Below are positions 1,905-14,327 of a stretch of DNA of 64,000 nt, piece after piece. How positions within the stretch are numbered: the first letter of the stretch is position 1; the number at the start of each line of letters is the position of its first letter. This DNA comes from Hyphomicrobiales bacterium (GTDB lineage: Bacteria; Pseudomonadota; Alphaproteobacteria; Rhizobiales; Rhodobiaceae). Below the pieces are notes generated by a model, which searched no databases, was not told where the DNA came from, and saw only the letters and a program-made list of their open reading frames with translations. Where the stretch lies: the NCBI GenBank assembly GCA_002869065.1, contig PKTR01000002.1, positions 310,001 to 374,000 of the forward strand, written 5' to 3'. Made by a program: the position numbers and the translations under genes.

Positions 1905-3119
1905 CTACAGCAGCGACTTCAGCGGGAAATCGGGGTCGGCGGCCTGATCCGGCGTCGGGCCGGCACCTGCGGCGAGCAACTTGCGCGCCATGATGTAGTC
2001 GGCGCCCTTGTTGACCGCATCGATGGCGCGGAACGTCCCGTCGCGGAAATGGAAGATCGAGAAGCGCTGGCTTTCCATGTCACCGCGCAGCACCTGCTGA
2101 TCGCTGCCCTGCGACAGGCCGGCCATTTGCAGCTTCAGATCGAACTGATCGGACCAGAACCACGGCACGGCGTCGTAGGGCTTTTGCTTGCCGACGATGG
2201 CGGCCGCGACGCTGCGCGCCTGATCGGCGGCGTTCTGCACCGATTCAAGCCGGATGCGGGCGTCCGCGAAGGGGTGCTCATAGGCGGCGCAATCGCCGGC
2301 GGAATAGACGGCGGGGTCCGAGGTGCGGCCGTGATCGTCGACGACGATGCCGTTGTCGCAATGAATGCCGGCGGCTTCGGCCAGCTCCACATTCGGGATG
2401 ACGCCGATGCCGACGACGACGAGATCGCACCGTACCTCGCCGCCATCGGCGAGTACCACGGCTTCGATACGGCCATCCTTGCCGGCAAACTCGGCGACGC
2501 CCGCACCGCAGCGGATGTCGACGCCGTGCGCCTGGTGAACGCCGGCATAGAACTCCGACAGCATCGGCGGCGCGACGCGGGCGAGCACCCGGTCCATCGC
2601 CTCAAATACGGTCGCCTTCTTGCCGAGCTTGGAGGCCACAGCCGCGAACTCCAGCCCGATGAAACCGGCGCCGACAACGGCGACATGCTCGGCGTCGGCG
2701 AGCCGGCGTTCGATGCGGTCGATATCGGCGAGGGTCTTGAGATAGAACACGCCGTCGAGATCGGCGCCCGGCACCGGAATCTGACGCACGCGCGCGCCGG
2801 TCGCTAGCACCAGATGGTCGTAGGCAAGGCCGCTGCCATCGCCGAGCGCGACGGTTTTTGCCGCGCGGTCGAAGGCGGCAACGCCGGTCGACAGCTTCAG
2901 GTCGATGCCGTTCTGGCCGTAGAAGTCATCGGCGCGGAATTTCAGCCGTTCGGCATCGGAATCGCCGAGCAGATAGGCCTTCGACAAGGGTGGGCGCTGG
3001 TAAGGGGGATGGGACTCCTCGCCGATCAGGGTGATCGGGCCTTCATAGCCCTCCTGACGCAACGAATCCGCACACTGGAAACCGGCCTGACCGGCTCCGA
3101 CGATGACCACTCCGACCAT
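1905..3119 (-). CDS. FAD-dependent ferredoxin reductase (P450 partner)
   Basis: NADH-dependent flavoprotein of the putidaredoxin/rhodocoxin reductase type (404 residues, normal length), passing electrons from NADH to the [2Fe-2S] ferredoxin encoded just upstream. Two dinucleotide-binding folds are visible: FAD motif VGAGQAG near the N-terminus and NADH motif VVGAGFIGLE near residue 150. A conserved YSAGDCA segment (second FAD contact) follows near residue 295 and the C-terminal reductase domain has PWFWSDQF. The start ATG at 3117-3119 overlaps the ferredoxin stop by one base (TGATG), so the two are translationally coupled. With the ferredoxin and P450 it forms a complete class I P450 electron chain. 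Confidence 0.92.
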   Translation of the reverse strand: MVGVVIVGAGQAGFQCADSLRQEGYEGPITLIGEESHPPYQRPPLSKAYLLGDSDAERLKFRADDFYGQNGIDLKLSTGVAAFDRAAKTVALGDGSGLAYDHLVLATGARVRQIPVPGADLDGVFYLKTLADIDRIERRLADAEHVAVVGAGFIGLEFAAVASKLGKKATVFEAMDRVLARVAPPMLSEFYAGVHQAHGVDIRCGAGVAEFAGKDGRIEAVVLADGGEVRCDLVVVGIGVIPNVELAEAAGIHCDNGIVVDDHGRTSDPAVYSAGDCAAYEHPFADARIRLESVQNAADQARSVAAAIVGKQKPYDAVPWFWSDQFDLKLQMAGLSQGSDQQVLRGDMESQRFSIFHFRDGTFRAIDAVNKGADYIMARKLLAAGAGPTPDQAADPDFPLKSLL

Positions 3120-3442
3120 CAGCTCTGTTCCTCGGGCAGGCGCACCACAAGGCCGTCGAGACTGCCGGACACCTTGATCTGACAGCCGAGACGACTGTTC
3201 GCGGTGCGCGTCGATACGGTGAATTCCAGCATGTCGTTCTCGGCTTCCGCCATCGCGCCGACTTTGTCAAGCCAGGCATCGTCGACATAGACGTGACACG
3301 TTGCGCAGGCGCAGGAGCCGCCGCATTCGCCCTCAATTCCGGCGACGTTGTTGAGCGTCGCGGCCTGCATCAGCGTCCAGCCTTCGGGCGCCTCGACCTC
3401 GGTTTTTGTGCCGTCGTGGGCGATATAGGTGATCCTGGGCAT
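3119..3442 (-). CDS. [2Fe-2S] ferredoxin (adrenodoxin/putidaredoxin type)
   Basis: Small electron carrier (107 residues) between the downstream reductase and the upstream P450. Cluster ligands fit C40-X5-C46-X2-C49-X37-C87, the spacing of the adrenodoxin/putidaredoxin class; C44 is an extra cysteine within the loop. ATG at 3440-3442 is chosen because GGAAGGA lies just upstream; the open frame extends further but that part has no coding character. The gene is 211 bases downstream of the P450 stop. The gap contains two hairpins (3535-3560 and 3607-3652) that could reduce or process the message between P450 and ferredoxin. Confidence 0.92.
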   Translation of the reverse strand: MPRITYIAHDGTKTEVEAPEGWTLMQAATLNNVAGIEGECGGSCACATCHVYVDDAWLDKVGAMAEAENDMLEFTVSTRTANSRLGCQIKVSGSLDGLVVRLPEEQS

Positions 3443-3534
3443 CAGCCGTCCTTCCCCCAAGGGTTTTCTTGCCGCGCGGACCCTCATCCGGCGGCATTCG
3501 GAGTTGTTTTCGTTGTAAAATCGGGCAGCACTGT

Positions 3535-3560
3535 GCCCGCCGGCATGAAAACCGGCGGGC
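3535..3560. other. Perfect 9-bp hairpin between P450 and ferredoxin genes
   Basis: GCCCGCCGG (3535-3543) pairs perfectly with CCGGCGGGC (3552-3560) around an 8-base A-rich loop. No T run follows on the minus strand, so it is better seen as a processing or attenuation structure than as a full terminator. Confidence 0.55.
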
Positions 3561-3606
3561 ATGGTGCGCTGCGTCTGGAGCCCATCGCGCCCCAAGGCTT
3601 TCTGGG

Positions 3607-3652
3607 GCATGTTGTTTGTCGCAAAACCGGAATCCACTTTTGCGCAACATGC
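3607..3652. repeat. Intergenic palindromic element, copy A
   Basis: Nested inverted repeat: outer arms GCATGTTG/CAACATGC (3607-3614, 3645-3652) and inner arms CGCAAAA/TTTTGCG around a CCGGAATCCAC centre. Same architecture as elements at 50009-50076 and 54033-54077, and resembling palindromic repeats common between genes in Rhizobiales. Confidence 0.75.
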
Positions 3653-3653
3653 T

Positions 3654-4817
3654 CTACAGGATGCGGATGTCGAGCTTCAGCGGGCTGCGGAAGGTCGTCG
3701 ACGGCATCCACGGGAGTTCCTCGTCGACCCGCTCGAAATCCGGGAAGCGGGTGAGGAATTCCTCGAACGCGATCTTCATCGCGAGACGCGCGATCGCCGT
3801 TCCGAGACAGGCATGCACACCGCCGCCGAAGCCGAGATGGCCGCGCGGCTTGCGGGTGATGTCGTAGACGTCCGGGTTCGGGAAACGGCGTTCGTCGCGA
3901 TTGCCCGCGCCATAGGCGAGGCAGACGAAATCGCCGGCCTTCATCGTCTGGCCGTGCAACTCGGTGTCCTTGGCGAGGCAGCGGCGGAAGCGCTGTGCCG
4001 AGGTGTTGAAGCGCAGGCTTTCCTCGATCGCATCGGGGATCAGCGAGAGATCGGCAGCGAGCGCCTTGCGGGCCTCGGGATGGTCGGCGAGGTTGAGCGC
4101 GAACATGGTCATGAAGCCGGAGAGCGATTCCACGCCGGCCATGATCAGCGTCGTCACCGTCATCTGCACTTCGCGGTCGAGCAGCTTCTCGCCGTCGATC
4201 TCGGCCAGGATGAACTGGCTCAGAAGATCCTCGCCGGGGTTCTTCTTGCGCTCCTCGACGAGGCGGGCGGCATAGTCGCTCATCCACTCGAAGGCGGCGA
4301 TGTGCTCGGGGCCCTTCTGGCGGCTGACCGGGTCGGACTGTACCATCAGCACCGCCTTGTCGCGGACCTCGTTGCGGCCCTCATCCGGCAGGTTGAACAG
4401 ATAGAACAGCAGGTCGACCGTCATCTTCGACGAGAAACCAGTGACGAAGTCGAACATCGACTGGCCCTCGAGCGCGGCGATATGGGCCTTCGCCGCCGCA
4501 CGCGCCGGCTCGATGATGTGGTCGAGGGCGCGCTTCGTCACCGCCATCTGGATCAGCGAGCGCAGCCGGTCGTGACGCGGGGGATCGGTGGTGCCGAGCG
4601 TGGCGCCGGCGCGGTTCGGGAGCTCGTCCATCAGGTTTCCCTTGGCGGACGAATAGGTCTCCCAGTTGTTCAACGCGGCGAGAATGTCATCGTAGCGGGA
4701 CAGGATCCACATATTCGCGTCCTCGCTCCAGAAGCAGGGATGTTCGTCCCGGAGCGTCTTGTAATATGGGAACGGGTCCGCATCGACCGCCGGGGAATAG
4801 GGATCGAACCGGAACAT
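3654..4817 (-). CDS. Cytochrome P450 (class I, soluble)
   Basis: Soluble bacterial monooxygenase of 387 residues. Seen: ExxR (E266-R269), heme loop FGGGVHACLG at residues 330-339 with the thiolate ligand C337, and the I-helix segment AGVES at 227-231. The usual acid-alcohol pair is D/E-T; here it is Glu-Ser, which is uncommon and may affect oxygen activation. The NPDVYDITRK block resembles that of CYP199-type aromatic P450s. Neighbours suggest hydroxylation or O-demethylation of an aromatic acid feeding the protocatechuate 4,5-cleavage pathway, but the substrate is inference. A very strong ribosome site, AAGGAGGT, precedes the ATG. The gene is divergent from an AraC regulator, probably its activator. 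Confidence 0.92.
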   Translation of the reverse strand: MFRFDPYSPAVDADPFPYYKTLRDEHPCFWSEDANMWILSRYDDILAALNNWETYSSAKGNLMDELPNRAGATLGTTDPPRHDRLRSLIQMAVTKRALDHIIEPARAAAKAHIAALEGQSMFDFVTGFSSKMTVDLLFYLFNLPDEGRNEVRDKAVLMVQSDPVSRQKGPEHIAAFEWMSDYAARLVEERKKNPGEDLLSQFILAEIDGEKLLDREVQMTVTTLIMAGVESLSGFMTMFALNLADHPEARKALAADLSLIPDAIEESLRFNTSAQRFRRCLAKDTELHGQTMKAGDFVCLAYGAGNRDERRFPNPDVYDITRKPRGHLGFGGGVHACLGTAIARLAMKIAFEEFLTRFPDFERVDEELPWMPSTTFRSPLKLDIRIL

Positions 4818-4953
4818 GGACTTAACCTCCTTCTAATATACGTTTTGTCTTTGTTGTTGGCGGGCAGTTTATGGCCGACCGATCGTTCAAGGAATGGACC
4901 TATCGCTCTTCTCCTTGTACTTTTGGAACATCTTTGTCCCCTGGAGCCCGGCG

Positions 4954-5880
4954 ATGCCCGCGACCGAAATCTCCCGCTTCACGCTCTATCGCGACCCCAA
5001 TACGGCCGACGATCCGGAGTTCGTGCATATCGAGGACATCGGCGCGCGCTCGCGACTGTACGAATGGCAGATCACGCCGCACCGCCACACCGGCATGTTC
5101 CAGATCGTGTTCGTGCGCGAGGGCGGCGCGACGGTGCGGCTCGACGAGCGCACCGCGGAGCTGAAGGCGCCGGCTGCCGTGACGGTGCCGAGCGGCGTGG
5201 TGCACAGCTTCGTTTTCGAGCCGGAAACGCTCGGCCATGTGGTGACGGTCTCGCAGGTGCTGCTGGTCGATGCCCGCTACCGGCGCAGTCGCAAGCTGCT
5301 CGACCCGCTCTATCGCGCGCCGCTCACGCTTGATTTCTCGGACGCGCCGGACCAGCGCGACATCGTCGCCCGGACGCTCGAACAGATGCATGCCGAGTTC
5401 CTGTGGCCGCAGCTTGGGCGCTCGTCGATGTTCGAATGGCAGTTGCGCATCCTTTTGATGACGCTGCGTCGCCAGCTCGAGCGGATCTCGGCACCGCAAT
5501 CGGAGCCGGGGTCCCGCAGCGAGACCTTCGCCCGACTGCGCGAGCTTATCGAGGATCAATATCGCCAGCACTGGAGCATTGCCGACTATGCCGAGGCGCT
5601 CGGTATCAGCCGGGTTCAGCTCAACCGGCTGGCGCGCTCGTTCGCCGACAAAAGCGTGCTCGACCTGATCCAGGACCGGCTGCTGCTCGAAGCCCAGCGC
5701 CACCTCACCTACACCTCGGCGAGCGCGGCCGAGATCGCCTATGAGCTCGGCTTTCAGGACCCGGCCTATTTCTCGCGCGTGTTCAAGCGGCGGACGGGAG
5801 CGACGCCGGGTGAGTTCCGCCGTTCAAGCCGCGCGGCGACCACCCCGGAACCTGCCCGCGAGGCAGCCGAAACCAGATAG
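4954..5880 (+). CDS. AraC-family transcriptional regulator (PobR/HpaA-like)
   Basis: Regulator of 308 residues with an N-terminal cupin sensor domain (HRHTGMFQIVFVREGGATV, then PSGVVHSFVFEP) and a C-terminal AraC helix-turn-helix pair (about residues 195-285; SIADYAEALGISRVQLNRL and AAEIAYELGFQDPAYFSRVFKR). The sensor resembles AraC-type PobR/HpaA proteins that respond to 4-hydroxybenzoate or 4-hydroxyphenylacetate. ATG at 4954 is chosen because GGAG lies at 4943-4946; an upstream ATG at 4894 would add a hydrophobic stretch unlike the family. Divergent from the P450 gene with a 136-base shared upstream region, where it probably acts. Ligand identity is inference. Confidence 0.88.
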   Translation: MPATEISRFTLYRDPNTADDPEFVHIEDIGARSRLYEWQITPHRHTGMFQIVFVREGGATVRLDERTAELKAPAAVTVPSGVVHSFVFEPETLGHVVTVSQVLLVDARYRRSRKLLDPLYRAPLTLDFSDAPDQRDIVARTLEQMHAEFLWPQLGRSSMFEWQLRILLMTLRRQLERISAPQSEPGSRSETFARLRELIEDQYRQHWSIADYAEALGISRVQLNRLARSFADKSVLDLIQDRLLLEAQRHLTYTSASAAEIAYELGFQDPAYFSRVFKRRTGATPGEFRRSSRAATTPEPAREAAETR

Positions 5881-7027: not shown

Positions 7028-9409
7028 TTACTTGGCGCTCTTCTCCTTGGCATAGGCGTTGAGCACCTTGTTCATGACTTCCTGATGCTGGTCGTTGTTG
7101 ACGAACCCAGGTGTGTTCACCTTCGACCAGAGGTCTTCGTTGGTCATGTTCTGGTGGCAGCCCATGCAAAGGCCCGTGCGCTCCATCTTTTCGCGCATAT
7201 CCTGCGGCAGCGGACCCGTCAGCGGCCAATGCGAGCCGATGGTGACGAGCTGCTTGCCGTCCCGCGTGATGATCTGCGACAGGTCGTGATCAAGCGTCGG
7301 GACAGGTTGCGACTGGAGCTGGGTCTTCTGCGGAATGGTTTCGCCCAGAGCGGTTTCGAGATCGACGGTGAAGCCCTTCTCGTAACCCTTCATGAAGCGA
7401 CCATCCGAGATGCCGTAGCCAAGCGCCTTCGGATTGTCGTGGCAGCTCTCACATGTGCGGGCTTCACGACCGGCCGTGTGCGGCTGGACGGCGGCATGGT
7501 CAAGACCCTTGGTGCCGCCGGCGTCAGGCGTCATCCAGGTTTCGTTATGGGCGACAGTCTTGCCGTCCTTGTCGATAACCGTGGTGATGACCTGGCAACC
7601 AGGCATCAGCGGGCTGACGCGACCTTCGCCATTGATGCCAAGCGTCGGTTCTTCCCAACGCAGGTACGAGCGGGTCTCGGAGACTTTGCCCGCGGACTTC
7701 AGGCCGTTTGTGCCCAGCTTGTTGTCCTCGGTCAGGCCATCGGGGCCGCGCGAGTTGGCGTTGTTGATCCAGTCGACGTCGGTCTTGCCTTCAGAGTAAT
7801 CGACGGTGATGTGGCAGCCGTAGCACTGCGGAGCCCAGTCCGCGTGGCAGGCGTAGCATTCCATCGATTCCATGTGCTTGCCGACATTCATCATGGCGAC
7901 CTGAGCGTTCAGGTTCTTCCAGGTCTTGTCGGTGGCGATCTGCTTGAGCACCGGGATCTCGAAGTCGAGGCCGGAAGCCGAATGCAGGACCACTTTCTTG
8001 CCGCTCTTGACGACGTTACCGAGCGGGTTGCCGCGGGCACTCAGGAGATACCCGTCTTCGGCTTCATACTCGGTGGCGAACGCCATGAAGTCCGGCAGTT
8101 CGTCAGCAAGGCCGCGACCCTTGTCGCCGATGTCCTTGGCATGCTCTTCGGCATAACCGAGCGGCAGTTCCCAAGGATATTTCGACACGGTGCCGTGGCA
8201 GTCTTCGCACTCGATCTCGACCTGCGCCAGCGTGGTACCCGGCAGGTTGCCGTCGCCGTGCATGTCGATCGAGGTGTGGCAGTCCTGGCACAGAAGTCCG
8301 CCTTCCGGATTGCCCGGCCGGCTCTGCTTCTGATGGTGCAGATCGTCCTTGATGAAGACGTAGTTCTTGGTGTGCAGCTTGGGCTGCTTGCCACCCTTTT
8401 CATCGTACGGCGACCCGTACGGGAACTCCATGATGCCCTGATAGCTCACGCCAATCCGCTTGCCGCGGTTGTGGCACGAGTTGCAGGTCTCGGCCGGAAT
8501 ACCCGAATACTCGATATCGCCATGCTTGATCTTGGTCTTGCGGGTCGACTGCATGCGGTGGGTAAGCAGCTTGCCCGGCTGATCCTTGGCGATCGTCGGA
8601 TCCTTGCCCTCATAGAAGCCGTCGTTCGAATAGGGAACGTGGCACGACGAGCAGCCCGAACCGCGATAGTCGCCGCGTTTCTCACGACCGGTCACACCGA
8701 CATGGCAGCGCTGGCACTGCTGGCGCGAGTAAGTGATACCGGCGAGATTCGGATGTTCGGAGATCGAGTCGACATCGACGGCCGGAACCTGCTCGACTTC
8801 GGTCGGCATCTGATCCGGATGATCGGCGATGAACTTCTCCATGTAGTCCTTGTACGCCTCGGTACCGACGGTCGGCCGCGGGCCGTCCTCGTCCTTGATG
8901 GCGTAGTTGGCCCAGACGACCTTGTGGTCCTTCTGGACGCCCCAGGACCACAAATTGCCCTGCAGCTTGCCGGCTTCGGTGTTCATCAGCGACTTCGAGA
9001 GACGCTCGGCATAGCCTTCGTGGCACTGGCCGCACGCTTTTTCCGCCGCGCCCCAGATCGCGCCAGGGTCGGAGTAGAACATGTGCGGGCCGCCCGCTTC
9101 GGTCAGCGCCTTGGGCGCGCCGCTGTGGGCCTCGTCGGCCGTGGTTGCGCTCGGGTTGCCGCCATGACAGACGACACAGCCACCCGGGTCGCTGTAGTCA
9201 TGACCCATCGCTTCGATGGTGTCCTGCATCGGACCGTCGGAGAAACGCTCGATGCCCTCGTGACAGGACATGCAGCCTTTTTCCTTGGCCAGTTCGGACG
9301 TCACCGTCATGACTTCCTTCGGCTCCTCAGCCTTCGGCTCTTCCGCCGCGAATGAGGGGCCCGCAACAAGCCATGCAGCCGTCCCGAGTATTGCGAGTAG
9401 TTTTTTCAC
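7028..9409 (-). CDS. Dodecaheme c-type cytochrome, periplasmic, unknown substrate
   Basis: Large multiheme cytochrome of 793 residues with exactly twelve CxxCH heme sites (CMSCH, CVVCH, CGQCH, CQRCH, CSSCH, CNSCH, CQDCH, CEDCH, CYACH, CYGCH, CESCH, CMGCH). No CxxCK or long-spaced heme site is present, and the only other cysteine lies in MPGCQVITTV. An N-terminal signal peptide (KKLLAILGTAAWLVAGPSFA) exports it to the periplasm. No C-terminal membrane anchor is seen. GTG at 9407-9409 is preferred because GGAGG lies five bases upstream; the ATGs at 9421 and 9427 lie over or before this ribosome site. Likely role: respiratory electron transfer or an anaerobic reductase; substrate unknown. It directly follows ccmFH-ccmI, which probably serve its heme attachment. 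Confidence 0.88.
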   Translation of the reverse strand: MKKLLAILGTAAWLVAGPSFAAEEPKAEEPKEVMTVTSELAKEKGCMSCHEGIERFSDGPMQDTIEAMGHDYSDPGGCVVCHGGNPSATTADEAHSGAPKALTEAGGPHMFYSDPGAIWGAAEKACGQCHEGYAERLSKSLMNTEAGKLQGNLWSWGVQKDHKVVWANYAIKDEDGPRPTVGTEAYKDYMEKFIADHPDQMPTEVEQVPAVDVDSISEHPNLAGITYSRQQCQRCHVGVTGREKRGDYRGSGCSSCHVPYSNDGFYEGKDPTIAKDQPGKLLTHRMQSTRKTKIKHGDIEYSGIPAETCNSCHNRGKRIGVSYQGIMEFPYGSPYDEKGGKQPKLHTKNYVFIKDDLHHQKQSRPGNPEGGLLCQDCHTSIDMHGDGNLPGTTLAQVEIECEDCHGTVSKYPWELPLGYAEEHAKDIGDKGRGLADELPDFMAFATEYEAEDGYLLSARGNPLGNVVKSGKKVVLHSASGLDFEIPVLKQIATDKTWKNLNAQVAMMNVGKHMESMECYACHADWAPQCYGCHITVDYSEGKTDVDWINNANSRGPDGLTEDNKLGTNGLKSAGKVSETRSYLRWEEPTLGINGEGRVSPLMPGCQVITTVIDKDGKTVAHNETWMTPDAGGTKGLDHAAVQPHTAGREARTCESCHDNPKALGYGISDGRFMKGYEKGFTVDLETALGETIPQKTQLQSQPVPTLDHDLSQIITRDGKQLVTIGSHWPLTGPLPQDMREKMERTGLCMGCHQNMTNEDLWSKVNTPGFVNNDQHQEVMNKVLNAYAKEKSAK

Positions 9410-9568: not shown

Positions 9569-11005
9569 CTATTGCGCGATGCCGATTGCGCTCGCGGTTT
9601 CTTCCAACTGGGCGAGAACGGTCGTATCGCCCTCGAAATGGGTGCGTGCCGTGGCGAGTGCCGCCTCCGCACGCTCCTTGTCGTGCAGTATCGAATAGGA
9701 GCGGATCAGCATGATCCAGCCGTTGATGTCCTTCGGATTCTCCTCAAGCCGCGCGGCAAGGCCCTCGACCATGCCATCGATCATCTGGCCCTGCTCCTCT
9801 TCGCTCATCGAAGCGGCGTTGGCGATGTCTTGCTGGGTCGGGCCTTTGGGTTCAGACGCCGCGGGCTTGACCGCATCGAGGCCGAGCGCGCGAGCCGCCT
9901 CGTCGAGCTTGGCGACGATGAAGGGCGCGGCCTTGTAGCGATCGCGGGCGGTATCGAGCGAGGCACTCGCGGTCTCGTTTTCGCCGATGCGCGCCTGCAG
10001 CGTCGCCAGCTCGATCCACGACTTGTAGTCCTTCGGCTCGTTGCCGAGATTTGTTTTGAGTTCGGCGATGCGTTCCTCGACCTTGGCCTTTTCGTCGCCG
10101 AGCGCGAAATTGCCAGCCTTGGAGAGTTCGGCGGCGGTCGCATCGGGGAGCAACGTCTTCAGATCGACCTTGAGGAAGCGAGCCATATTGGTGATGTCGC
10201 GGCGAACCAGCGGCATCCACGGTGCTTCCGGCGCGGATTCCCGTTTCAACGCCATCCAGTCGGCGAGCGCGCCCTCGAAATCCTGCGTCTGCGCCTTGGC
10301 GAGCGCCAGATAATAGCGGGCGCGAGGGTCCTTCGGCCGCTTCGTGATCACCTGGGTGAAGGCGATACGGGCGGCCGGGACGACGCGGTTGCCATTCGCC
10401 AGCGTGATCGCCTCGGCATAGGCGACGACGACGCCGGGGTCTTCCTTAGACAGTTCGACGGCGTGGCGGTAGGCCTCGGCGGATTCGGTGTAATTCTGCA
10501 GCATCGCGTAGGCCTGGCCGAGCATCCACCAGTCCTCGAAATTCTTCGGATCCTTTTTGGTCTTTTCGGCCAGATAGGCGACGCGGCTCTTCAGATCGCC
10601 GCCCTTGGCGGCTTCGGCGAGCAGATCCATCTTGCGCTGGACAAGCGGCAGGTCGGGCATGGCAGGATTGCCGTAAGTCCAATAGAGGCCAAGCGAGGCG
10701 GCGCCGGCAACGACGACGACAGCGGCGGCTGCGGCCGGCATGCGGCGCACGACGCCGGGGCTGGTGTCGAGCTGGCGAGCGGCCTTCAACGTGCGGCGTT
10801 CGATCTCTTCCTCGGCGGCGCGGTATTCGTCCTCGCCGATGAGGCCACGATCGCGGTCCCGGGCCAGTTCGTCGATCTGGTCACGATAGACCGAAATCGC
10901 GTAGTCGGATTCCATGCTGACCGTCCGCTTGCGGGCGAGGAACGGACGGGCAAGCCACAGCGCGACAACCGCGGTGATGGCAGCGACGGCGAGCCAGAAC
11001 ATCAT
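9569..11005 (-). CDS. ccmI: Cytochrome c maturation protein CcmI (CycH)
   Basis: Membrane chaperone that holds apocytochrome c for heme ligation by CcmF/CcmH. 478 residues: TM helix at the N-terminus (MMFWLAVAAITAVVALWLARPF), a cytoplasmic loop with a charged coiled segment (YRDQIDELARDRDRGLIGEDEYRAAEEEIERR in parts), a second TM near residue 95-115, then a periplasmic TPR-rich domain with repeats such as NFEDWWMLGQAYAMLQNYTESAEAY and a second TPR group near the C-terminus. ATG at 11005 is chosen because AAGGAGG lies six bases upstream. This start overlaps the ccmFH stop by four bases (ATGA), so the two are translationally coupled. The window contains no ccmE or ccmABCD. Confidence 0.9.
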   Translation of the reverse strand: MMFWLAVAAITAVVALWLARPFLARKRTVSMESDYAISVYRDQIDELARDRDRGLIGEDEYRAAEEEIERRTLKAARQLDTSPGVVRRMPAAAAAVVVVAGAASLGLYWTYGNPAMPDLPLVQRKMDLLAEAAKGGDLKSRVAYLAEKTKKDPKNFEDWWMLGQAYAMLQNYTESAEAYRHAVELSKEDPGVVVAYAEAITLANGNRVVPAARIAFTQVITKRPKDPRARYYLALAKAQTQDFEGALADWMALKRESAPEAPWMPLVRRDITNMARFLKVDLKTLLPDATAAELSKAGNFALGDEKAKVEERIAELKTNLGNEPKDYKSWIELATLQARIGENETASASLDTARDRYKAAPFIVAKLDEAARALGLDAVKPAASEPKGPTQQDIANAASMSEEEQGQMIDGMVEGLAARLEENPKDINGWIMLIRSYSILHDKERAEAALATARTHFEGDTTVLAQLEETASAIGIAQ

Positions 11006-13461
11006 TGTGCCCCTCCTTCGAGAATCTTGCGGGCCGCATCGCGGTCCTCCGCGCTGAGCGCTGCGCGCCCGGCCACGTCCTTGCCGCTGCGGCGGTAGTA
11101 GGCGCCGCCGATCAGGAACGCGATGGCGATGAACAGCACCGGTGCGGCCCACAGCACGTAGGTCGTCGGCTTGACCGGCGGCTTCAGCAGAACGAAATCG
11201 CCATAGCGGTCGACGACGTAGCCTTTCACGGCAGCAGCATCATCGCCGGCCTGCAGCCGCTCGCGCACCAGGATGCGCAGGTCGCGGGCGAGCGAGGCGT
11301 TGGAGTCGAAGATCGACTCGTTCTGGCAGACGAGACAGCGCAGTTCCTTGCCGATTTCGCGAGCTTTTGCCTCCATCGCCGGATCGGGCAGCAACTCGTC
11401 GGCCGTCAGCGCAGCAGCCCGGTCGCCACCCATCGCAGCGAGCAAGCCGAGGGCGAGGATCGCGGCGGGTGCCGCCTTGCGACCGGCCTTGCTGCGGGTC
11501 GCACGATTGGCGCGGCGCGCCGGGGCGCCGATGCGCAGCCGCCGGTCGGCGAGCGACACCATGCCGGCGAACGCCATCAGCACGCCGCCGACCCACATCC
11601 ACACGACGCCCGGATTGTAATAGAAGCGCGTGACCCAACCGCCCTTGCCATCCGGATCGCCGATGACGGCATAGAGATCCCCGTGCCAACGGGTGTCGAT
11701 GGCGGCTTCGGTGGTTGCCTTGCCCTCGACCGGATACCAGCGGCGCTCGGGATACATGGTGCCGACAGCTTCATCGCCGCGCTTGACGGTGATGGTGGCG
11801 ATCTCGGCCTGATAGTTCGGGCCCTCGCCCTTGTTGACCTCGACGAGCGTGAAGCCGTAGCCGCCGACCTCGGCTACATCGCCCGGCTTCTGCACCTGGA
11901 TGCCTTCCGCCTGCCAGACGGAAATCGCTGTGACGCCGAGGATCGCAAGCGCCAGGCCGCCATGGCCGAGATAGAGCCCGTAGCTCGAGCGCGGTAGGCC
12001 GAAGGCGCGGCGCAGACCGCCGAGGAAGCCGACGCGGGCGAAGCCGGCGCGGTCGACGAAATCGCTCAGCGTTCCTGCGATCAGCCAGGCGGCGACCGCC
12101 ATGCCGGCATAGCCGAGGATATCGGCACGGCTGGCGAAGATGCCGGTCAGCACGCAGGCGCCGATTGCGGCGGCGAGCAACACATAAAGGCGCTGTACGA
12201 GGGCGCGGGCATCGGCCCGTTTCCAGGACAGCATCGGACCGATGGCGGCGACCAGCGCGACCGGTGCAAACATCGGAATGAAGGTCAGATTGAAGTAGGG
12301 CGCACCGACGGTGAGCTTTTCGCCGGTGAAGATGTCGACGAACAGCGGGTAGAGCGTGCCGACGAAGACCGCGCCGCCGCCGGCGGCCAACAGCAGATTG
12401 TTGAGCAGCAGGCTGCCTTCGCGCGAAAACGGGGTGAACAGGCCGCCGCCATTGATCGTCGAGGCGCGGGCGGCAAACAGGGCCAGCGCGCCACCGATGG
12501 CGATGATCAGCAGACCCAGAATGAACACGCCGCGTTCGGGGTCCTGCGCGAAGGCGTGCACCGAGGAAAGAATGCCGGAGCGCACCAGGAAGGTGCCGAT
12601 CAGGCTCAGCCCGAAGGTGAGGATGGCGAGCAGGATCGTCCATTTCTGCAGCGCGTCACGCTTTTCAACGACGATCGCGGAGTGCAGCAGCGCGGTGCCG
12701 AGCAGCCAGGGCATGAAGGACGCGTTTTCGACCGGATCCCAGAACCAGAAACCGCCCCAGCCGAGTTCGTAGTAGGCCCACCAGGAGCCGAGCGCGATAC
12801 CGAGCGTCAGGCCCGACCAGGCAATCAGGATCCAGGGCCGCATCCAGCGCGCCCAGCTCGGGTCGATGCGCCCGGCAATTAGCGCGCCGACGGCGAAGGA
12901 GAAAGCCGTCGAGAAACCGACATAGCCGAGATAGAGGAAGGGCGGATGGAAGGCGACGCCCGGATCCTGAAGCAACGGGTTCATGCCGCGACCGTCGACC
13001 GGCGGCGCGGGCAGACGCTCGAACGGGTTCGACGTGGCGAGAATGAAGGCGAGGAAGCCGAAACCGATGAGGGCTTGAATGGCCAGTACGCGAGCGCGCA
13101 TGCTGAGCGGGATATTGCCGCCGAACAGCGAGATCAGCACACCGAACAGCGCCAGCATGAAGACCCACAGGAGCATCGAACCCTCGTGGTTCGCCCACAC
13201 GCCGGTGACCTTGTAGAGCATCGGCTTCGTGGAATGGGAGTTCAGCGCCACGTTGGCGACGGAGAAATCGGAGACGACATAGGCGTAGACCAGCGCGGCA
13301 AAGGCACCGGTGACGGCCAGAAACTGGATTTGCGCGGCGCTGTCGGCGAACTGCATGGCGCCGACGGTGCCGCGATGGGCGCCGGCCAGAGGCACGACCG
13401 CCTGCAGCAGGGCCACCACGAGGGCAACGCAGAGCGCGAAATGGCCGAGTTCTACGATCAT
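11002..13461 (-). CDS. CcmF-CcmH fusion (cytochrome c heme lyase)
   Basis: A single 819-residue frame joining two proteins normally encoded separately. Residues 1 to about 640 are CcmF: many TM helices, with the heme-handling WWD region GGFWFWDPVENASFMPWLL and periplasmic histidines. A basic stretch (RRLRIGAPARRANRATRSKAGRK) is followed by a hydrophobic segment (AILALGLLAAM) and a CcmH domain from about residue 684. The CcmH part has the thiol motif LRCLVCQN (C709, C712), FDSNASLARDLR, and a C-terminal TM (VLWAAPVLFIAIAFLIGG). The junction contains no credible start codon or ribosome site for a separate CcmH. The topology works if the basic linker is cytoplasmic. The start overlaps the Crp/Fnr stop by four bases, and the stop overlaps ccmI by four. 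Confidence 0.88.
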   Translation of the reverse strand: MIVELGHFALCVALVVALLQAVVPLAGAHRGTVGAMQFADSAAQIQFLAVTGAFAALVYAYVVSDFSVANVALNSHSTKPMLYKVTGVWANHEGSMLLWVFMLALFGVLISLFGGNIPLSMRARVLAIQALIGFGFLAFILATSNPFERLPAPPVDGRGMNPLLQDPGVAFHPPFLYLGYVGFSTAFSFAVGALIAGRIDPSWARWMRPWILIAWSGLTLGIALGSWWAYYELGWGGFWFWDPVENASFMPWLLGTALLHSAIVVEKRDALQKWTILLAILTFGLSLIGTFLVRSGILSSVHAFAQDPERGVFILGLLIIAIGGALALFAARASTINGGGLFTPFSREGSLLLNNLLLAAGGGAVFVGTLYPLFVDIFTGEKLTVGAPYFNLTFIPMFAPVALVAAIGPMLSWKRADARALVQRLYVLLAAAIGACVLTGIFASRADILGYAGMAVAAWLIAGTLSDFVDRAGFARVGFLGGLRRAFGLPRSSYGLYLGHGGLALAILGVTAISVWQAEGIQVQKPGDVAEVGGYGFTLVEVNKGEGPNYQAEIATITVKRGDEAVGTMYPERRWYPVEGKATTEAAIDTRWHGDLYAVIGDPDGKGGWVTRFYYNPGVVWMWVGGVLMAFAGMVSLADRRLRIGAPARRANRATRSKAGRKAAPAAILALGLLAAMGGDRAAALTADELLPDPAMEAKAREIGKELRCLVCQNESIFDSNASLARDLRILVRERLQAGDDAAAVKGYVVDRYGDFVLLKPPVKPTTYVLWAAPVLFIAIAFLIGGAYYRRSGKDVAGRAALSAEDRDAARKILEGGAQ

Positions 13462-14327
13462 GACTGTGACTGCCTTTCGAACGGGGCTCCGTTGAAGAAC
13501 CGGCCGCGCGCCGAGGGCCCGGCCGAGGGGTCGGATGCGGGATGGTCGTCGCCCCCGCCATTGTGGCGGGCGGCCTCGGCGGCGGGCCTCAAACCGGCGG
13601 CGGTCGGCGCGCGGCCGGCAAGACCGTCGAGGTCGTGGACGACGAAATCGGTCGGTGAAAGGAACGTCACCAGCCGGCTCTTGCGAATACGGGTAAACAG
13701 GCGACTGACCGTCTCGGCGTTGAGGCCGAGATAGTCGGCGATGTCCTCGCGGCTCAACGGCAGCGTGACGCGATAGCCGCCGGGACAGGGATCGCCCAGC
13801 CGATAGGTCATTTCGGCAAGGAACAGCGCGACACGTTCCAGACCGTCGAAGCGGCCGAGCATGATGAGATTGGCGTTGGAGCGCTCGAGCTGGACGTGGG
13901 TGGCGCGGAACAGGCTGGCCGACAGGGCCGGCGCGAGCCCGGTGGATATCATCGCCGCGAGATCGATTTCGCAAAGCTGGCTGGGGGCCAGAATGTCGAC
14001 CCAGGATTCGACGCCTTCGGCACCGCCAACGGGACAGAGGATATCGCCGGATGTGTTCAGGCTGGTGATCTGGCGGCGACCGTCGGCAAGCGTTGTCGAC
14101 AGGCCGACGAGGCCGCTGACCACCACCCACAGACGGCGGCAGGGATTGAGACCGCCGACGAGACGCGTGCCGCGGGCGAGCGAGATCAGCCGCTGCGGGC
14201 TGACCCCAGTCTCGTCTCGGGCTGCGGTGATGTGGGGTTTGAGCGGGCAACGCGCCAATTCACAGCAGCCGCAATCGTGCTCCTCGGGCGCGGAATACGC
14301 CACATTGGTCTTGCGTGCTGCGAACAT
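13458..14327 (-). CDS. Crp/Fnr-family regulator with N-terminal cysteine cluster
   Basis: 289-residue regulator. N-terminus has C19, C21, C22 and C27 (HDCGCCELARC), with further cysteines at 63, 98 and 119. The spacing C19-X2-C22-X4-C27 plus a later cysteine is close to the oxygen-sensing [4Fe-4S] arrangement of Fnr, so a redox-labile cluster is plausible but unproven. A cyclic-nucleotide-fold domain follows, then the helix-turn-helix LPLSREDIADYLGLNAETVSRLF with the E--SR recognition pattern of Fnr/FixK proteins. The last 50 residues are a Gly/Pro/Ala-rich tail beyond the usual end. It overlaps ccmFH by four bases (ATGA), so the regulator is made with the heme lyase it probably controls. Confidence 0.88.
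   Translation of the reverse strand: MFAARKTNVAYSAPEEHDCGCCELARCPLKPHITAARDETGVSPQRLISLARGTRLVGGLNPCRRLWVVVSGLVGLSTTLADGRRQITSLNTSGDILCPVGGAEGVESWVDILAPSQLCEIDLAAMISTGLAPALSASLFRATHVQLERSNANLIMLGRFDGLERVALFLAEMTYRLGDPCPGGYRVTLPLSREDIADYLGLNAETVSRLFTRIRKSRLVTFLSPTDFVVHDLDGLAGRAPTAAGLRPAAEAARHNGGGDDHPASDPSAGPSARGRFFNGAPFERQSQS

Follow-up and report, generated by a model that had tools for sequence, protein, structure and literature searches.

The window, the whole 64,000-nucleotide stretch of Hyphomicrobiales DNA that was analyzed, encodes a c-type cytochrome with twelve canonical heme sites in a cluster that also contains genes for a CcmF-CcmH fusion, a CcmI-type chaperone, and an FNR-type regulator (Table 1). 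Because the linked alphaproteobacterial CcmF proteins branch apart from the housekeeping copies, the cytochrome, although all-canonical in its heme sites, appears to have a heme lyase of its own. We propose that the cytochrome may act in the periplasm as a soluble terminal reductase, serving an as yet uncharacterized anaerobic respiration, a reading that we judge to have an even chance of being correct.

Table 1. Features of the cytochrome gene cluster and their positions in the window
Feature	Position	Strand	Basis
12-heme c-type cytochrome, 793 aa	7028..9409	minus	signal peptide; GTG start at 9409; family alignment
Cys605 codon, invariant non-heme Cys (motif GRVSPLMPGCQV)	7595..7597	minus	kept in all 80 aligned members
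FNR/CRP-type regulator	13458..14327	minus	PF13545/PF00325
CcmF-CcmH fusion, 819 aa, genome's second CcmF	11002..13461	minus	PF16327, PF01578, PF03918 on one frame
CcmI-type TPR apocytochrome chaperone, 478 aa	9569..11005	minus	PF23914 E 2e-28
Rap1a-like small secreted protein, 123 aa	6577..6948	minus	PF18602 E 1.7e-11

The sequence-only reading placed a 793-residue frame with twelve CxxCH motifs at 7028-9409 and left the strand unstated; the frame is confirmed and lies on the minus strand, and the plus strand over this interval contains only an antisense frame without CxxCH. A GGAGG sequence is located 5 bases upstream of the GTG start, and an ATG four codons earlier is a possible alternative. 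The signal peptide, as read from the sequence, ends SFA-AEE and lacks a lipobox. The CxxCH motifs begin at residues 46, 78, 126, 232, 253, 309, 374, 401, 518, 529, 653, and 748, and because these sites recur throughout the 80 aligned full-length proteins of the family, they cannot be attributed to chance. A scan of the 793-residue sequence reveals neither CxxCK nor CX15CH, in agreement with the same reading. The heme-poor stretches of the protein (residues ~406-517 and ~534-652) had been interpreted as additional domains, which holds only in part: in an AlphaFold model of moderate confidence (pLDDT 68.7, pTM 0.71), the regions where hemes are sparse are β-rich, but the stretch at ~570-650 is not an accessory add-on. 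This stretch is common to the cytochrome and the shorter ExtM-like twelve-heme proteins, and several of its residues, including the invariant Cys605, are among the most highly conserved in the family. The fold search that had been proposed as a check, performed with this model against the PDB, returned nothing below an E value of 5, and PDB searches by sequence and by profile revealed nothing meaningful and no related solved structure.

A genome scan for relatives of the cytochrome yielded 422 stretches, of which the best 80, most of them full length, were kept; the family alignment comprises 80 full-length members (the window protein included) with a lowest pairwise identity of 54%. The family occurs in marine Alpha- and Gammaproteobacteria, and its hosts include Roseibium, Tropicimonas, Aliiruegeria, Shimia, Thiodiazotropha, an Olavius symbiont, and Photobacterium. 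Matches are present in 23 of 369 sampled gammaproteobacterial genomes (~6%), a few of them short or divergent, and strong matches number 4 in 385 sampled alphaproteobacterial genomes (~1%); in the order of the host, only 5 of 61 genomes, the host counted, carry the cytochrome. In 17 of the 80 aligned members (L016-L020, L022, L025, L055, L075, L077, L080, and L082-L087, but not L021), CX4CH (CGQSGCH and similar) replaces CX2CH at heme site 3. Such homologues are found in both alpha- and gammaproteobacteria, so that strict use of canonical sites holds for the window member but not for the family as a whole. Variants with 11 hemes, apparent from a regular-expression count of CxxCH, were rejected because the missing site is the CX4CH variant.

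Several atypical relatives were also observed. The homologue in L136 (4304-6564) lies in two overlapping open frames that cover approximately hemes 1-8 and 9-12, owing to a frameshift or to an error in sequencing, and those in L134 and L135 are cut to ~500 aa, with the first eight hemes only and without the Cys605 module. A plasmid search revealed only weak partial matches, on Sphingobium and Sphingopyxis megaplasmids; a multiheme protein of ~1330 aa on a Sphingobium megaplasmid (L147, 7312-11301) weakly matches cytochrome residues 369-537. The undecaheme cytochrome of biocathode bacteria is a speculative candidate for the identity of the protein, prompted by the habitat common to Labrenzia and Tenderia. 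No description of the cytochrome family was found in a literature search.

In the window, the genes for the regulator, CcmF-CcmH, CcmI, the cytochrome, and the Rap1a-like protein are collinear in this order. The 4-base overlaps between the regulator gene and ccmFH and between ccmFH and ccmI suggest translational coupling of the three; ccmI and the cytochrome gene are separated by 159 bases, and the cytochrome and Rap1a-like genes by 79 bases. Of 83 loci, 46 have a Rap1a-like gene immediately after the cytochrome gene, and CcmI lies near the cytochrome in 37 loci. The CcmF-CcmH fusion is also present in the genus relative G002, as identified with Pfam, and probably in G001, as judged by frame length; most other linked clusters contain ccmF and ccmH as separate genes. 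In an alternative neighborhood, the cytochrome is accompanied by a five-heme NapC, an unknown protein, a ZnuA-like protein, a rhodanese, and an ankyrin protein, and in another by a TPR lipoprotein, an unknown protein, and sometimes a hemerythrin or a porin. Where linked ccm genes are absent, as in L058, L071, and L082, among other loci, the cytochrome is adjoined by a secreted TPR lipoprotein that may stand in for the linked CcmI as an apocytochrome chaperone. Elsewhere in the window, a 157-base direct repeat (1337-1493 and 1641-1797), 96% identical between its copies and bearing 29-base perfect inverted arms, resembles a small repeat element, and genes for a ferredoxin reductase, a ferredoxin, and a cytochrome P450 lie in a row on the minus strand at 1905-4817, divergent from an AraC-type regulator gene at 4894-5880 (all named from translations).

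The host genome contains a housekeeping CcmF on another contig in addition to the linked CcmF of the window. Among the 61 genomes of the order that were compared, two CcmF are present in all three genomes of the host genus and, outside the genus, in only two others; two relatives in the order that have the cytochrome but no linked cluster carry a single CcmF each. A tree of 65 CcmF rows places the alphaproteobacterial linked copies in a single clade (support 100/99) that spans several orders and is separate from the housekeeping copies of the same genomes, which argues for a dedicated lyase; the gammaproteobacterial CcmF in L074 falls outside this clade. The association extends beyond mere proximity in that, in Alphaproteobacteria, a separate CcmF lineage travels with the cytochrome. 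The distances of the cytochrome and the linked CcmF are correlated (r 0.72, n=33, 0/2000 permutations), and across 10 genomes the cytochrome correlates at 0.82 with the linked CcmF and at 0.66 with the housekeeping CcmF; because the latter value is also positive, part of this co-evolution reflects species history.

Published dedicated bacterial lyases serve the atypical motifs CX12NKGCH, CX15CH, and CXXCK (PMC6976685). The window cluster resembles the systems of SirA/MccA (SirEFG or CcsA1) and NrfA (NrfEFG), in which a multiheme reductase is provided with a dedicated CcmF-type lyase (PMC6976685), and, as for SirA/MccA, the lyase is of the CcmF/CcmH/CcmI type. However, the lyases of these reductases serve atypical sites (CX15CH or CX12NKGCH in SirA/MccA and CXXCK in NrfA), whereas the window cytochrome has CxxCH only, and neither reductase exhibits detectable homology to it. 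The sequence-only reading had reasoned that a special lyase would have to be needed for a reason other than an odd heme motif, which proves correct for the window protein. An atypical heme site was rejected as the cause of the lyase, as the window protein has none, and CX4CH at site 3 does not explain it either, because some members with this variant have linked ccm genes and others do not. By analogy, the nearest precedent for a lyase that serves a large multiheme protein is the CcmF2 of ANME, a diverged CcmF that always adjoins the large multiheme cytochrome MHC-B (PMC9012536), and the window cluster would be a bacterial parallel. MHC-B is archaeal, S-layer-fused, and thought to serve extracellular transfer, whereas the window cytochrome is bacterial, soluble, and much smaller; unlike ANME CcmF2, the window lyase set also includes CcmH and CcmI.

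The window regulator contains N-terminal Cys19, Cys22, and Cys27, further cysteines at 98 and 119, and an FNR-type recognition helix (E..SR). The oxygen-sensing FNR has an N-terminal cysteine cluster and a further cysteine, and the corresponding columns are conserved in most of 36 linked regulators. FNR boxes, defined as TTGAT-N4-ATCAA with one mismatch allowed, were identified in the region upstream of the cytochrome at 33 of 76 loci, which do not amount to 33 independent events because the loci are related to each other; dinucleotide shuffles gave a mean of 1.2 and a maximum of 4, and permuted palindromes gave at most 2. Near the window's own genes, the same search, again with one mismatch tolerated, gave no FNR box.

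The absence of a close named family, as stated in the sequence-only reading, is supported by the HMM search, although this search also reveals a distant named relative. The best NCBIfam model, ExtM (NF040943), yields 235.1 bits against a curated cut-off of 800, which indicates that the cytochrome is not ExtM and only a distant sister. ExtM (GSU2935), from the Geobacter selenite/tellurite cluster, likewise has 12 hemes, and homology, judged against the 599-position profile, extends over positions 11-510 (segments 11-126 and 125-510); the cytochrome is ~200 residues longer than the model. The ExtN and ExtO models match cytochrome residues 503-680. The ext operon context of ExtM (ExtI porin, ExtKL, ExtN, and ExtO-S) is absent beside the window cytochrome, which is instead linked to ccmFHI and the FNR-type regulator. 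Two gammaproteobacterial twelve-heme proteins of 614-617 aa score 315 and 294 bits with ExtM, still under the cut-off, and align to the window cytochrome throughout; relative to this short ExtM-like form, the long form carries inserted segments at three places: between hemes 3 and 4, after heme 8, and after heme 11.

In the 80-member alignment, 11 non-motif histidines are at least 99% conserved (residues 95, 284, 346, 358, 359, 384, 476, 512, 644, 727, and 775), and Met142 and Cys605 are invariant. The ExtM-like short forms have His in place of Met142, an exchange suggestive of an axial ligand, and do not conserve His359; Cys605 is kept in the ExtM-like proteins of G721 and G777. The homologue in G258 lacks heme sites 10 and 12 and also Cys605, His346, and His775, a single case that is suggestive, not proof, of Cys605 belonging with heme 10 or 12. 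The presence of 11 conserved non-motif histidines for 12 hemes, together with the invariant Cys605, leaves room for an active heme that is not bis-His-ligated, and one of the 12 hemes may lack a His or Met distal ligand.

In the proposed respiration, the FNR-type regulator would turn on the lyase and the cytochrome without oxygen, and the dedicated lyase would load 12 hemes onto the long apoprotein. Electrons from quinol would pass through a NapC/NirT-type cytochrome to the heme chain, and a small periplasmic acceptor would be reduced at the heme without a His distal ligand, near Cys605 in the β-rich module. The host genome contains nap, nir, and nor genes and four NapC-type proteins (names assigned by reading translations), all unlinked to the cytochrome; a NapC-type quinol dehydrogenase lies beside the cytochrome in 10 loci, with five hemes in 9, and is absent from the window cluster. 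The electron-accepting direction is inferred from the FNR control and the NapC neighbors. From the distant kinship to ExtM and from rhodanese and porin neighbors in some relatives only, we infer, weakly, that the acceptor could be a small oxyanion of the sulfur, selenium, or tellurium type. A more tentative proposal, which we would sooner doubt than accept, is that the cytochrome represents an undescribed reductase family with an active heme near the invariant cysteine, possibly His/Cys- or open-ligated, that requires its own CcmFHI despite canonical sites.

The cytochrome might instead be a noncatalytic periplasmic electron wire or store in extracellular electron transfer, with the neighboring porin as the outer-membrane conduit. 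The twelve hemes and a match to the Pfam MtrC/MtrF domain II/IV model are consistent with this role, as are the Porin_5-type porin encoded beside the cytochrome gene at 5 to 6 related loci and the fact that the ext cluster of the named relative ExtM includes a porin (PMC5877670). With the OmcA/MtrC model (TIGR03507), the protein scores 12 bits, for which 209.3 are required. Against the wire reading, the protein has neither a lipobox Cys nor an outer-membrane cytochrome partner, and the porin is missing from most loci, including the window. The conserved, heme-poor, β-rich module with its invariant Cys would also be needless for a bare wire, and we regard this explanation as unlikely.

We consider it less probable still that the cytochrome oxidizes reduced sulfur or another inorganic compound in the periplasm and passes the electrons to the respiratory or denitrification chain. 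Several hosts are sulfur-oxidizing symbionts (Thiodiazotropha and the Olavius symbiont), a rhodanese is encoded in six loci, and a flavocytochrome c-like locus exists elsewhere in the host genome, but FNR control and the adjacent NapC-type quinol dehydrogenases favor the opposite direction of electron flow, although FNR control would also be compatible with an oxidation coupled to denitrification. The least probable alternative is that the cytochrome reduces selenite, tellurite, or a similar oxyanion in order to detoxify it and not to respire it, the role that has been proposed for the Geobacter ext cluster: the homology to most of the length of the ExtM model and the rhodanese and porin neighbors that parallel ExtH and ExtI in some loci are set against the curated ExtM score, which is far from reached, the fact that ExtM has no demonstrated activity and only an extI mutant phenotype is reported (PMC5877670), and anaerobic FNR-type control that is better suited to respiration.

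The more tentative proposal, an undescribed reductase family that requires its own lyase, would mean that a dedicated lyase can recognize the cytochrome itself and not an odd heme motif. As a phylogenetically separate lyase set follows a CxxCH-only cytochrome in this host, the rule by which the heme motif decides whether a special lyase is needed becomes directly testable. The cytochrome would also mark an apparent anaerobic respiration in ~6% of the gammaproteobacterial and ~1% of the alphaproteobacterial genomes sampled, animal symbionts included.
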